From: Clostridiales bacterium
Lineage (GTDB): Bacteria; Bacillota; Clostridia; Saccharofermentanales; Saccharofermentanaceae
Assembly: GCA_017617525.1 (NCBI GenBank)
Contig: JAFZWA010000060.1
Coordinates: forward strand, 1 to 64,000
Direction of reading: 5' to 3'
DNA length: 64,000 bases
In this document: one piece after another, positions 30,178-60,697 of the stretch
Layout of the letters: the number at the start of each line of letters is the position of its first letter
Position numbering within the stretch: position 1 is the first letter of the stretch
The notes under the pieces: generated by a model
The model's input: the letters and a program-made list of their open reading frames with translations, nothing else
Databases searched by the model: none
What the model was told of the DNA's origin: nothing
Made by a program: the position numbers and the translations under genes

Positions 30178-30645
30178 ATGAAAAAGCAACCTGTACAAAA
30201 TGCAAACAGACCGACATATCCGACTCTCTACCAGGTAAACAGCAGGACCGGTAACGTCCCGATCAAAAAGATCGCCGTTGTATCCGCGCTTACAGCTTCG
30301 ATGGCACTCATGAGCGGATGTCTCGAAGAAAACGGATCGAAAAAGAGCATGGGCCGATTCGAGAAGATGGGCGAGAAATTCGGACAACAGACCGAGACGT
30401 ATATCGAAGGTGAAATCGAGACATTAGCGACAGATGATTACGTTCTCGGGGGTGAGGCCGAGACGGTAGCTACAGATGATTACGTGCTCGCGGGCGCGGC
30501 CGATACGGAAGCGACAGACGACTACGTAGTAATGGGTGATATGGTAGAGTACACCGATGACTATGAACTCACGGGGGGAGAGACGGTAGAGACTGAATGT
30601 ACCGTATCCTACGAGATCGTCGGCGACATGTTCACCGAAGGCTGA
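30178..30645 (+). CDS. Candidate RiPP precursor with four TDDYxxxG repeats
   Basis: A 155-residue protein of unusual build. Residues 1-28 are polar (with PTYPTLYQVNSRTGNVP), then a hydrophobic stretch ends in LMSGC (Cys48), a possible lipobox, then a charged linker, then repeats: TDDYVLGG at 85, TDDYVLAG at 99, TDDYVVMG at 113 and TDDYELTG at 126, followed by a decayed TVSYEIVG. Spacings are 14, 14 and 13 residues. The next gene is a radical SAM/SPASM enzyme 37 bp downstream, so the repeats are probable sites of modification. I do not recognise a named family. AAGGAG precedes the ATG. Confidence 0.7.
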   Translation: MKKQPVQNANRPTYPTLYQVNSRTGNVPIKKIAVVSALTASMALMSGCLEENGSKKSMGRFEKMGEKFGQQTETYIEGEIETLATDDYVLGGEAETVATDDYVLAGAADTEATDDYVVMGDMVEYTDDYELTGGETVETECTVSYEIVGDMFTEG

Positions 30646-33221: not shown

Positions 33222-33311
33222 TGAAGTGCTTCACTTCGGGGTAGAAAATGGCAGGTAAATAAACGCGCGCGATCGATCTCGCGAATGCGTAAGAGAATAA
33301 CGGAGGTCCCC

Positions 33312-34562
33312 ATGGAGATCGCATTAGGTTTTGGAAAAGAGAAGATCCCGGTACAGGTACCGGATAATCAGGTCATGGCGGTTCTGACGCCGAACGAGGC
33401 TGAGATCGGCCTTACCGGCAGTGACGAAGTATACCGCTCCATGCGTGAGCCGATCGGTCTTCCGCCGCTTCGCGAAGTCGTAAAAGCAGGCGAGACCGTC
33501 GCGATCATCACATCCGACATCACACGCCCGATCCCGAGCTACAAGGTGCTCCCGGCAGTGCTCGATGAGCTCTCCGCCGCAGGCGTTAAGGACTCCGACA
33601 TCACGATCGTTTTCGCGCTCGGATCTCACGGCGGACACACCGAAGAGCGTATGCGTTACATGGTCGGCGACGCGGTTTACGATCGTGTCCGTTGCATCGA
33701 CTCTGACGTCAACGACGCCGTTCATGTAGGCACAACTTCCAGAGGCACACCGGTCGACATTTTCCGTCCGGTAGTTGAAGCGGACCGCCGCATCTGCCTC
33801 GGCAACATCGAATATCACTATTTCGCCGGTTATTCCGGAGGCTATAAGGCCATCATGCCGGGCGTTTCCACATGGGACGCCATCCAGCACAACCACAGCG
33901 CGATGGTCGAGCCGACCGCCTGTGCCGGCCGCCTCGAGGGTAACCCGGTCCGTGAGGACATCGAAGAATCCGGTAGGATCCTGGGCGTCGACTACATCGT
34001 AAATGTCGTTCTCGACGCGAAGAAGGAGATCATCCGAAGCTTTGCCGGTGACCCGATCCTCGCGCACAGAGAGGGCTGCAAATTCCTCGATTCTTTCTAT
34101 AAGGTATCCATCCCGGAGCAGGCGGACATCGTCGTCGTTTCCGCGGGCGGTTTCCCGAAAGACATCAATATGTATCAGGCGCAAAAAGCACTGGACAACG
34201 CCAAGCACGCGGTCAAGGACGGCGGTATCATCGTCTGGATCGCTTCCTGTAAGGAAGGGCTCGGCGAGCATCACTTCGAGCAGTGGCTGACAGGTCACGA
34301 GAAGAGCTCCGACATGATCACACACATCAAGACGGACTTTGTCCTCGGCGGACATAAGGCGGCCGCGATCGCGATGGTCCTCGAGCGCGCACGTATCTTC
34401 TTCGTATCCGATCTCGATCACGACTTTGTTAAGAAGGTATTCCTCGAGCCGTATTCCGATATCCAGACAGCCATCGACGCGGCGATCGCGGAGAAGGGTC
34501 CGGACGCGAAGATCGTTCTCATGCCGTACGGAGGATCCACACTTCCGAAAGTAGAAGCCTGA
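33312..34562 (+). CDS. LarA-like nickel-dependent lactate racemase family protein
   Basis: A 416-residue protein of the LarA fold. Putative catalytic and cofactor residues are in ALGSHGGHTEERM, HYFAGYSGGYK (His and Lys that hold the nickel-pincer cofactor in LarA) and HNHSAM. Members interconvert D and L forms of lactate or other 2-hydroxyacids. No larB, larC or larE for cofactor synthesis is in the window. The start ATG at 33312 follows GGAGGT. A D-2-hydroxyacid dehydrogenase gene lies 1 kb away on the other strand, a possible functional link. The 53-bp palindrome array begins 17 bp after the stop. Confidence 0.82.
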   Translation: MEIALGFGKEKIPVQVPDNQVMAVLTPNEAEIGLTGSDEVYRSMREPIGLPPLREVVKAGETVAIITSDITRPIPSYKVLPAVLDELSAAGVKDSDITIVFALGSHGGHTEERMRYMVGDAVYDRVRCIDSDVNDAVHVGTTSRGTPVDIFRPVVEADRRICLGNIEYHYFAGYSGGYKAIMPGVSTWDAIQHNHSAMVEPTACAGRLEGNPVREDIEESGRILGVDYIVNVVLDAKKEIIRSFAGDPILAHREGCKFLDSFYKVSIPEQADIVVVSAGGFPKDINMYQAQKALDNAKHAVKDGGIIVWIASCKEGLGEHHFEQWLTGHEKSSDMITHIKTDFVLGGHKAAAIAMVLERARIFFVSDLDHDFVKKVFLEPYSDIQTAIDAAIAEKGPDAKIVLMPYGGSTLPKVEA

Positions 34563-34578
34563 GTGCTTTTCGAGAGGC

Positions 34579-34936
34579 AATGGGATAAAGATCTGTGGGA
34601 TGAGTGATTTATCCCAATAAAATGAATCGTAACTGAGATAAAAACGATGATCCTGTCGTTTTTATCTCAGTTTTTTTGTGCCCGATTGAGATAAATTCAG
34701 GAAAAACCGTGTTTTTATCTCAGTGATCCTTGAATTTATTGATATAAAGAAGAAGAAAAGCAAGTTTTTATCCCAATTGCTCCGAGATTTATTGATATAA
34801 AAACGGAGAAAAATGATTTTTTATCCCAATCGTCTCGAGATTTACTGATATAAAAACGAAGAATCTGATGTTTTTATCCTACTCGTATTTGGAATCACTG
34901 AGATAAATCAAGGAAAAACTCGAGTTTTATATCAAT
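34579..34936. repeat. Array 1: seven 40-bp palindromes at exact 53-bp period
   Basis: Units start at 34579, 34632, 34685, 34738, 34791, 34844 and 34897, each exactly 40 bp, with 13-bp spacers. Consensus is ACTGrGATAAAAACG, about 10 variable bases, CGTTTTTATCyCAGT. Unit 2 is a perfect 15-bp stem. Arms therefore alternate in orientation every 26-27 bp. Some changes are paired between arms (GAGAT with ATCTC, GGGAT with ATCCC). No coding frame is present. A second array of the same type is at 60214-60529. Confidence 0.9.
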
Positions 34937-34975: not shown

Positions 34976-35437
34976 TCAGAGCAGGAAGCTTAAGCCTGCG
35001 AGCGCACCATAGGCGATGAGGGTGACGACAACGGCGGCGATGCATACGCCGATCACAGCCGCGAGGATCGCTTTCTTGAACGGTACTTCACATACCGCGG
35101 CGATGCCCGATCCGGTCCAGGCGCCGGTTCCTGGAAGAGGAATGGCGATAAATCCGACCAGTGTCCAGAAAGCGGTATTTCCGGCCTTTTCGACTTTCTT
35201 CGCGAACTTGTTCTCGCAGAAGTCTACGATCTTTTTCAGCTTCGGATACTTTCTCATCCAGTCAAAGATCTTCTTTATGAAAAGAAGGATGAAGGGAACG
35301 GGCAGAAGATTTCCGACGATCGCCAGCGGCAGCGCGACGTGCCACGGGATTCCGACAGTCGCGGCGTACGGGATGCTGCCACGGAGTTCCACGACCGGAA
35401 CCATCGATATGAGAAACATGTAAAGGATCTTGCTCAT
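34976..35437 (-). CDS. Small multi-drug export family membrane protein
   Basis: A 153-residue membrane protein matching the Sm_multidrug_ex / COG2426 family in length and in PVVELRGSIPYAATVGIPW, NLLPVPFILLF and AIPLPGTGAWTGSGIA. The family name is historical and its substrate is not established. Single gene, placed between the palindrome array and a copy of the AAAAGCACT motif at 35467. Confidence 0.85.
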   Translation of the reverse strand: MSKILYMFLISMVPVVELRGSIPYAATVGIPWHVALPLAIVGNLLPVPFILLFIKKIFDWMRKYPKLKKIVDFCENKFAKKVEKAGNTAFWTLVGFIAIPLPGTGAWTGSGIAAVCEVPFKKAILAAVIGVCIAAVVVTLIAYGALAGLSFLL

Positions 35438-35545
35438 CCTGTCTTAAGCTCCTTTATTTCTACGGCAAAAGCACTTGCCGGGAATTCATTCTTCACAAAC
35501 GGCATAAGGATACCACATAAACGCCGGTCTGCCAAACCGACGAGA

Positions 35546-58331: not shown

Positions 58332-60158
58332 ATGTGTGGAATCGTTGGATATACAGGATCACAGCCCGCGGCACCGATCCTTCTGGACGGACTTAAGAAA
58401 CTCGAGTATAGAGGCTATGACTCCGCCGGAGTTGCTGTTCTGAACGAAGGCACCATCAAGGTCGATAAAGTCAGCGGCCGTATCGCAAACCTCTGCGAAC
58501 TGACAGAAGACGGTAAGAATTGTCCCGGAATGCTTGGTATCGGTCACACAAGATGGGCAACACACGGTGCCCCGACAGATACCAACGCGCACCCGCACCT
58601 CAGTAACGATGGCCGTTTCGCTATCGTTCACAACGGTATCATCGAGAACTACATTTCTCTTCGTGAGGAACTCATCAGCAAGGGATATCACTTCGACAGT
58701 GAAACAGATACCGAAGTTATCGTTCACCTCATCGAAATGTACTACAAGGGCGACCTTCGTCGTGCCGTTATCAAGACATCCGCTCGTCTTTCCGGTTCCT
58801 ACGCTCTCGGCGTTATCTGCACGGATAAGCCGGACACGATCGTAGTTGCCCGTGAGGCAAGCCCGCTGATCCTTGGTGTCGGTGCAGGCGAGAACTTCTT
58901 CGCTTCCGACGTAACCGCACTCGTAGCAAACACAAGAAACGCGATCTACCTTGACGATGGTGAGTTCGCTGAATTGACACCTGAAGAAGTCAAGGTATTT
59001 GACGCTGCAGGTCAGACCATCACTAAGAAGATCTCCCGTATCACATGGGATATCGAAGCAGCTGAAAAAGGCGGCTACGAGCACTTCATGCTCAAGGAGA
59101 TCATCGAGCAGCCGAGAGCTGTCAAGGCAACTGTTGCTCCTCGTATCAAGGACGGCAAGATCGTTCTCGACGAGATCGAATGGACAAAGGATTATCTCGA
59201 GTCCATCAACAAGATCGTCATCACGGCATGCGGTTCCGCTTACTATGCAGGATGCGCCGCTAAGTACACGATCGAAAAGCTCTGCCGTATCCCGGTTTCC
59301 TGTGAGCTCGCAAGTGAGCTCCGTTACAGCGATCCGCTGATCGACGAGCATACACTTCTGATCGTTCTTTCCCAGTCCGGTGAAACAGCGGATACCATCG
59401 CTGCCATGAAGGAGTGTAAGGAGAGAGGCGCAAGAACTCTGGCGATCGTAAACGTTGTCGGAAGCACCATCGCAAAGCTCGCGGACGATGTCCTTTACAC
59501 ATGGGCAGGTCCGGAGATCGCCGTTGCGACAACAAAGGGTTACACGACACAGGTTTCCGTTCTGTACCTTGTTGCCGTATATATCGCTAAGACACTCGAT
59601 AGACTCGAGGATGCCGATTATTATCACCACCTGTCCACACTCCTGATGCTCCCGAAGCGTGTTCAGGAAGTTCTCGACATGAACCCGAAGATCCCGAAGA
59701 TGGCAAAGAAGTATCACAACACCAAGTCGATGTTCTTCATCGGAAGAAATACCGACTCCGCGATCGCTCTGGAAGCGGCTCTGAAGATGAAGGAGATCTC
59801 CTACATCCACGCAGAATCCTATGCCGCAGGTGAGCTCAAGCACGGCACCATCGCTCTCATCGAAGAGCATCAGCCGGTCATCGCTCTTTGCTGCAACCCG
59901 CACATCATGGAAAAGACATTGAGCAACATCGTTGAGGTCAAGGCCCGTGGCGCTGAGGTCCTGGCGGTTACTTACAAGGGCAACCACGAGATCCTGGCAC
60001 AGGCAGACGACGTTATCTTCATCCCGAAGATCGACAATCTCTTCTCCGCGGTAGTTGAGATCGTTCCGCTTCAGATGCTCGCTTACCACGTTGCCAAGGA
60101 GAACGGCTGCGATATCGATAAGCCGAAGAACCTTGCGAAGTCCGTTACGGTAGAGTAA
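58332..60158 (+). CDS. glmS: Glutamine--fructose-6-phosphate aminotransferase
   Basis: The 608-residue enzyme makes glucosamine-6-phosphate for cell wall synthesis. It opens MCGIVGYTG with the catalytic Cys after Met, has the glutaminase signatures GHTRWATHG and HNGIIENY, and two SIS domains (SQSGETADT; CNPHIMEKT region), ending in the conserved AKSVTVE. Only 47 bp separate it from the purA terminator, so the glmS ribozyme known from Bacillus and relatives is absent here. The second palindrome array follows. Confidence 0.97.
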   Translation: MCGIVGYTGSQPAAPILLDGLKKLEYRGYDSAGVAVLNEGTIKVDKVSGRIANLCELTEDGKNCPGMLGIGHTRWATHGAPTDTNAHPHLSNDGRFAIVHNGIIENYISLREELISKGYHFDSETDTEVIVHLIEMYYKGDLRRAVIKTSARLSGSYALGVICTDKPDTIVVAREASPLILGVGAGENFFASDVTALVANTRNAIYLDDGEFAELTPEEVKVFDAAGQTITKKISRITWDIEAAEKGGYEHFMLKEIIEQPRAVKATVAPRIKDGKIVLDEIEWTKDYLESINKIVITACGSAYYAGCAAKYTIEKLCRIPVSCELASELRYSDPLIDEHTLLIVLSQSGETADTIAAMKECKERGARTLAIVNVVGSTIAKLADDVLYTWAGPEIAVATTKGYTTQVSVLYLVAVYIAKTLDRLEDADYYHHLSTLLMLPKRVQEVLDMNPKIPKMAKKYHNTKSMFFIGRNTDSAIALEAALKMKEISYIHAESYAAGELKHGTIALIEEHQPVIALCCNPHIMEKTLSNIVEVKARGAEVLAVTYKGNHEILAQADDVIFIPKIDNLFSAVVEIVPLQMLAYHVAKENGCDIDKPKNLAKSVTVE

Positions 60159-60213: not shown

Positions 60214-60529
60214 ACTGGGATAAAATCGACAAATGAGTCGGATTTATCCCAGTCTTTTTTCTCCTCGATAGGATAAAAACGCAAAAAACGTCGTTTTTAT
60301 CCCAGTGCTTTTCGCGCGGAATGGGATAAATCTTCACAAAATAGAGTTTTTATCTCAATTTCCCTCTGATTTCCCGGACACAAACTGGGATAAAACGAGA
60401 TGATTTACCGTTTTTATCCCAGTTGACCTTGGATTTATTGGGATAAAAAACGGATAATCGCGCTTTTTATCTCAGTGACGATCAAAATTACTGGGATAAA
60501 ACAACCGATTCTTCAGGATTTATATCAGT
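60214..60529. repeat. Array 2: six 40-bp palindromes at 53-bp period
   Basis: Units start at 60214, 60267, 60320, 60384, 60437 and 60490. Each is 40 bp; four steps are 53 bp and one is 64 bp (53 plus about one helical turn). Consensus ACTGGGATAAAA(A)CG, variable centre, CGTTTTTATCCCAGT, the same as array 1. Unit 1 also pairs internally (TCGAC/GTCGG) and is followed by a T run, so it may double as the glmS terminator. No coding frame seen. Confidence 0.9.
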
Positions 60530-60621: not shown

Positions 60622-60697
60622 TGGTGGAGCATAGGGGACTTGAACCCCTGACCCCCACACTGCCAGTGTGATGCGCTCCCAACTGCGCTAATGCCCC
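60622..60697 (-). tRNA. tRNA-Ala (anticodon GGC)
   Basis: The 76-nt sequence folds into a full cloverleaf: acceptor GGGGCAT with ATGCTCC, anticodon loop CTGGCAG giving anticodon GGC, T arm AGGGG-TTCAAGT-CCCCT, discriminator A and an encoded CCA tail. Promoter and terminator flank it closely, so it is a single-gene unit. Confidence 0.96.

Follow-up and report, generated by a model that had tools for sequence, protein, structure and literature searches.

A stretch of 64,000 nucleotides from a Clostridiales genome (G000; assembly of 2.47 Mb, 95% complete), hereafter the window, contains a row of regularly spaced palindromes that lies in the gap between two convergent genes. What kind of element is this array, and what holds its units at so constant a distance? 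The original prediction described seven 40-bp palindromes repeated at an exact 53-bp period, and considered a dimeric protein, an architectural site, or a multi-hairpin RNA as possible explanations. In this work, we found that this array (array 1) is probably an orphan from a family of half-site arrays that are dispersed, keep phase with the DNA helix, and are tied to a multi-copy gene for a putative nuclease, which we call the driver. The relevant features of the window are as follows.

33285..34562, + strand: 425-aa gene to the left of array 1, presumably LarA-like; used as a synteny anchor
34579..34936, no strand assigned: array 1, seven 40-bp inverted-repeat units with a period of exactly 53 bp, half-site ACTGRGATAAAAAC / TGNNATAAR
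34631..34672, + strand: unit 2 of array 1 (core 34632-34671) with flanking bases, a near-perfect stem followed by a T-run, terminator-like
34976..35437, - strand: 153-aa gene to the right of array 1, convergent; by its look a putative membrane protein
58332..60158, + strand: 608-aa gene to the left of array 2, which we take to be glmS-like; used as a synteny anchor
60214..60529, no strand assigned: array 2, six units (3+3) with steps of 53, 53, 64, 53, and 53 bp, located 3' of the glmS-like open reading frame and before a minus-strand tRNA
60625..60697, - strand: the tRNA beyond array 2, found by Rfam scan

Arrays in the window and at orthologous sites

The units of array 1 start at positions 34579, 34632, 34685, 34738, 34791, 34844, and 34897, such that all six steps are exactly 53 bp, as had been predicted. 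Each unit consists of a 14-bp arm, 12 bp, and a second 14-bp arm; units are joined by 13-bp linkers, and the arm orientation flips every 26/27 bp, matching the alternation of ~26.5 bp described previously. Judged on repeat structure, the inverted-repeat units and short linkers do not resemble a CRISPR array, in line with the original prediction. A phage or plasmid origin was also rejected, as the DNA of array 1 matches no phage or plasmid record. The Rfam scan of the window gave the tRNA as its sole match, with no Rfam family at the arrays, and a search for promoter-like sites found none.

A chance origin is ruled out by half-site counts against shuffled sequences, a genome-wide pattern scan, and control tiles. 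At up to three mismatches, ACTGRGATAAAAAC has 32 matches in the window, compared to 8.45 +/- 3.0 in shuffles (largest 18). At up to two mismatches, the pattern TGRGATAAA-N18-TTTATCYCA occurs at 18 places per strand in the 2.47-Mb genome, all within three arrays, and the reversed-pattern control gave 0 matches in the same genome. The motif is thus confined to these three arrays, namely, array 1, array 2 (absent from the original prediction), and a third array on contig C33 with steps of 53, 63, 53, and 53 bp. Array 1 and the C33 array are 73% identical over 235 bp, with a 10-bp indel in one linker.

Two other repeats were observed in the window. A short sequence like GTGCTTTTCGAGA / TTCTCGAAAAGCAC lies near gene ends and inside some arrays genus-wide; in the window it is found at 34563-34575, 60304-60315, and 35465-35480, and it also occurs in many intergenic stretches of relatives. 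Furthermore, a 42-bp tandem repeat (30409-30527) lies within the open reading frame 30178-30645.

Outside of this genome, the relaxed pattern TGNNATAAR-N18-YTTATNNCA matches 11 of the 98 genomes of the family, and the letters at NN vary by species. A four-half-site pattern has 33 matching stretches in a collection of 84,980 species, 31 of them in metagenome-assembled genomes (MAGs) labelled 'Clostridiales bacterium', whose sample names are mostly ruminant. The two remaining, non-Clostridiales matches (L077 and L081; two units each, on contigs of ~7 kb) were taken as chance or binning errors. Among 2.9 million viral contigs, the array pattern has 0 matches.

For arrays 1 and 2, we inspected the orthologous sites in 23 genomes of the genus. 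Array 2 is shared by G000 and G002 at the same place (85% identical). In the sister genome G013, terminator-like DNA replaces both arrays, with an ordinary terminator at the array 1 site. Further genomes carry arrays, or repeats resembling arrays, that are alike in geometry but differ in half-site, for example, TTACAGTATA in G019 and TGCCGTATAA in G020 (strict scan), as well as, by eye, ACCGATARAA in G006 and G016, ATGGTCTAA in G001, and TACGGC in G007. The array geometry is conserved while the half-site sequence is not, which bears out the earlier statement that spacing is kept more strictly than sequence. Arrays are intergenic and mostly 3' of genes; many lie between co-directional genes and some between divergent ones. 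Apart from the driver, the flanking genes are mutually unrelated except for two pairs.

Among the loci viewed, an array of palindromes with a 50-bp period (GGTCTCC...GGAGACC; L030:335-560 on G020:C40) resembles the array upstream of a distant driver (L229) of the same genome. In G021, two to three array types lie head to tail in a single intergenic gap (L048:3023-4015 and L047:5101-5668), as if arrays attract arrays.

A putative nuclease gene adjoining the arrays

A protein of ~266 aa recurs beside arrays in four genomes, with the stop codon 15-66 bp from the array. Neither this family nor array 2 figured in the original prediction. Driver genes are present in several copies per genome, and matches were found in all 23 genomes of the genus (distant ones only in G000 and G011), 99 of the 188 genomes of the order, and five of the 398 genomes of a phylum sample, four of these five belonging to one other family of the class.

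Adjacency was counted for 76 near-full-length driver copies of the genus, with the two G003:C4 pieces counted as a single locus. An array adjoins the driver gene in 60 of the 76 copies by the union of two automatic tests. The palindrome scan found arrays at 50 copies (26 downstream, 24 upstream, and 0 on both sides), and an independent finder of half-site chains found them at 58 (two weak second-side calls set aside). The same tests found arrays in 0 of 373 control tiles of 600 bp and 0 of 152 shuffled flanks. The other 16 copies are negative by both automatic tests; by eye, many of them have an array among the matches listed. Adjacency extends beyond the genus: arrays were found at six of nine driver loci in a second genus, and the chain finder was positive at four of ten driver loci in the phylum sample, one of which (from yet another family) is a 627-codon frame with a partial match. 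Eleven of the distant C-terminal matches were viewed separately, and the whole-locus scan was positive at seven of these. A second, distant nuclease subfamily of the genus (FRSKSE...IEHLG; L214, L215, and L227-L235) has repeats with periods of ~50-62 beside several genes, and these are more complex than simple inverted pairs.

The half-sites beside drivers drift with the driver lineage: motifs are nearly identical between closely related drivers but not between distantly related ones. Motif likeness correlates with protein identity (r = 0.41; r = 0.18 for pairs below 65% identity; reached in 0 of 2000 permutations each), a relationship that vertical descent by itself would also produce. On the driver protein tree, which covers 71 of the 76 copies (five with in-frame stops were left out), copies with the array on the same side group together: six changes of side are needed, compared to a mean of 19.4 after shuffling, and 0 of 500 shuffles were as low. 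When dispersed arrays were scored against driver-linked arrays, the top-scoring driver came from the same genome in seven of 26 cases (one tie), in what is a blunt test because AT-rich motifs match many drivers. For array 1, the top score was G008:C19.

The motif of the window arrays belongs to the type that accompanies the ATAA clade of drivers, including G002:C10 (array TGATATAAA/TGAGATAAG), a copy adjoining speE. At the speE site, the driver is kept in G002, G010, and G022, and none is present there in G000, G013, G005, and G009; G005 and G009 carry such copies elsewhere. Between speE and its upstream neighbour, G004 has decayed driver pieces that are 96% identical to the G002 copy (L281; G004:C7). 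No cognate driver for the window arrays was found in the G000 assembly. Its only drivers are two remote family members (C-terminal identities of 28 and 30%), which bear other arrays with periods of 61-62; accordingly, the window arrays look like drifting orphans that still show the lattice. The matching driver may have been lost from G000, or may sit in the missing ~5% of the assembly.

Residues E161, D192, E207, and H208 of the driver are invariant in all 39 family members compared, as are R157, K159, and N238. The first three fit the conserved E...D...E/x catalytic residues of the PD-(D/E)XK nuclease superfamily, which suggests that the driver is an uncharacterised, nuclease-like protein with a PD-(D/E)XK/Vsr-type active site. 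In sequence searches, the C-terminal half of the driver matched the C-terminal end of PDC-S68, a PADLOC candidate family (E-values of 1e-25 to 2e-29 in four of five proteins, and 3e-18 in the fifth), and, weakly, a Holliday-junction-resolvase PHROG; RecD-like proteins encoded on viral contigs contain this domain as well. Neither Pfam nor NCBIfam gave a match above the family cut-off, no Y1 transposase family was found at E <= 0.1 in a Pfam-A scan of the 39 members, and a PDB sequence search gave no match. A structure model based on 12 sequences (pLDDT 82), which replaced one based on four (pLDDT 51), predicts a helical hairpin with a small sheet followed by a nuclease domain. The modelled catalytic half resembles I-Bth0305I (3r3p) with a VIA Z of 8.4 and an rmsd of 2.9 over 91 residues, just above the level of unrelated folds; Bax1 (Z 8.0) and 3hrl (Z 7.4) also match the nuclease domain at modest Z values, and structural matches to the N-terminal part are helical hairpins of a generic kind. 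Foldseek returned nothing at E <= 0.001, with DrdV, R2 endonuclease, Bax1, and MunI near the top.

Spacing, symmetry, and dispersal of the arrays

In the 58 driver-linked arrays, which differ in sequence, same-strand steps (n = 415) cluster at 50-55 bp (331), 61-66 bp (59), and 72-77 bp (13), with the remaining ones at 56-60 bp (five), 67-71 bp (one), and under 50 bp (six). Because steps within one array are not independent, we also obtained per-array median periods (n = 58): 49 are at 51-54 bp, seven at 62-64 bp, one at 68 bp, and one at 73 bp. A further set of spacing counts, in which some loci are represented twice, was set aside. For the ATAA clade, the distance between convergent half-sites is 27 bp in 56 of 57 cases; divergent half-sites are separated by 25-27 bp (42 cases) or 37 bp (three cases). 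Steps quantised at ~10.5 bp indicate the helical phase of DNA rather than an RNA, which has no such need, and agree with the earlier reading of 53 bp as five helical turns. This whole-turn spacing points to a requirement of protein assembly on duplex DNA. Taken with the convergent and divergent distances and the 10-bp indel between arrays 1 and C33, it makes cooperative binding of a dimeric protein the best-fitting of the explanations that had been proposed.

The symmetry of individual units has a different basis from the one initially suggested. Paired changes in the two arms had been put forward as a sign of selection on each palindrome. Some units do show such pairing (the unit at 34632 is a perfect palindrome), but three units of array 1 pair a TGATATAAA arm with TTTATCC. 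Across 71 units from 13 arrays of the window motif clade, no covariation was detected within units: 692 of 994 paired cells agree, compared to 710.9 when arms were permuted within arrays. The arms match no better than shuffled ones, so the symmetry of a unit is accounted for by two readings of one half-site and not by a hairpin in RNA or a cruciform. Neither selection for symmetric palindromes nor a multi-hairpin RNA is thus supported.

Dispersal is most evident in G009. Among 14 arrays compared, eight at different loci align unit by unit as a single element of ~300 bp with five units, found in both orientations, and identity among them stops near the array ends. Two of these eight are absent from the sister genome G022, with flanks that are 97-98% identical, and at one such site G009 has an array and a terminator where G022 has a different terminator. 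Arrays therefore come and go as whole cassettes, by gain or loss. Given the many similar copies in G009, we favour gain in this genome, while loss in G022 is possible. The original prediction had raised the decayed remnant of a known repeat element as a refutation; array 1 is indeed a drifting copy of a dispersed element, but this element matches none that we found described.

Interpretation and relation to known systems

The reading that we consider probable is the orphan status of array 1 within a driver-linked family. As to mechanism, we infer that driver dimers would bind each convergent pair of half-sites and that neighbouring dimers would touch in phase along the DNA. The nuclease may then cut at or near the array, and repair may copy array cassettes, often with a terminator, to other intergenic sites or convert existing ones, so that cassettes would spread in the manner of REP/RAYT or homing. 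The intergenic placement, mostly 3' of genes, fits insertion at little harm, and the terminator-like unit 2 fits replacement of resident terminators. A more specific version, plausible but held tentatively, is that each genome has several orthogonal nuclease-array pairs, in which a dimeric PD-(D/E)XK/Vsr-type nuclease would form a phased filament on four to seven duplex dimer sites and spread the cassettes, with specificity drifting along with the protein and the lattice fixed.

Phasing this strict would also suit a driver that is a former nuclease turned architectural protein or repressor, with arrays as immobile operator sites for gene control or chromosome folding. The arrays that lie 5' of their driver gene (about half of the copies) and the long retention of the glmS array in G000 and G002 are consistent with such a role. 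However, the invariant active-site residues argue for catalysis, the differences between sisters and the similar cassettes at many loci argue for dispersal, and the neighbouring genes are largely unrelated; we regard operator arrays as unlikely. Many arrays lie between genes that are not convergent, which speaks against a bidirectional transcription terminator or a multi-hairpin RNA between convergent genes, as do the lack of covariation, the quantised spacing that has no reason in RNA, and the absence of any Rfam family at the arrays. The terminators at the array 1 site in G013 and at the G009/G022 site, together with the terminator-like unit 2, point the other way, but termination may be a by-product, and we give this explanation very little weight. 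Much the same low probability applies to an anti-phage or anti-plasmid enzyme with arrays as self-marks, decoys, or sensors. The domain shared with PDC-S68 and viral RecD-like proteins is compatible with defence, as is the presence of several driver copies with different arrays per genome, whereas the array pattern in 0 viral contigs, the lack of phage or plasmid records for array 1, and conserved chromosomal sites that are not island-like (e.g., beside speE) are not.

Our best reading is that the logic of driver and arrays is closest to REP/RAYT, built from unrelated parts and without two defining features of REPtrons. As portrayed in two reports, REP/REPIN-RAYT systems consist of dispersed intergenic palindromes with clusters beside a single-copy nuclease gene, several gene-repeat pairs per genome, and co-divergence of gene and repeat (PMC3116915; PMC8266576). 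Likewise, driver arrays are found both beside the gene (in the 60 copies above) and dispersed in the genome. However, RAYT is an HUH/Y1 enzyme whose substrates are GTAG-tagged hairpins formed by single strands, whereas the driver appears to be of PD-(D/E)XK/Vsr type; its arrays lack hairpin covariation (in the window motif clade), mostly have four to nine units locked to helical turns, and are few per genome.

The predicted fold of the catalytic half resembles, at modest Z, the EDxHD/Vsr-like homing endonuclease I-Bth0305I, which according to a review dimerises on a target of nearly 60 bp (PMC3943268). In contrast to I-Bth0305I, the driver was not seen in introns, has an N-terminal helical-hairpin domain, and adjoins a tandem array rather than interrupting its target; no insertion of a driver gene into an array was observed, and the arrays themselves disperse. 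With PDC-S68 and RecD-like helicases bearing a C-terminal nuclease, the driver shares its C-terminal ~125 residues, but it is small and stand-alone, lacks the helicase part, and is accompanied by arrays. CRISPR and BIME/ERIC-type repeats are likewise repeats in intergenic DNA; driver arrays differ in having no unique spacers, a strict helical phase, and another gene partner.

In the open-access literature, we found no account of a nuclease of this kind paired with arrays of this kind. We rate the system as new as a kind, with parts that follow known principles. Most of the arrays in these gut bacteria adjoin a driver gene or match an array that does. The distinct array sequence of every driver lineage suggests a system for spreading repeats that has yet to be described. 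If this is true, it would be a second, unrelated solution to the problem solved by REP/RAYT, namely, the linkage of a persistent nuclease gene to repeats within the genome. It would also provide dozens of naturally occurring pairs of protein and site whose specificities diverge together, from which the DNA code of the protein might be read using sequence data only, and an unusual experiment of nature in which whole helical turns set the spacing. Finally, these bacteria would allow ideas on the spread of short repeats, and on the reasons for which cells retain the enzyme, to be tested.
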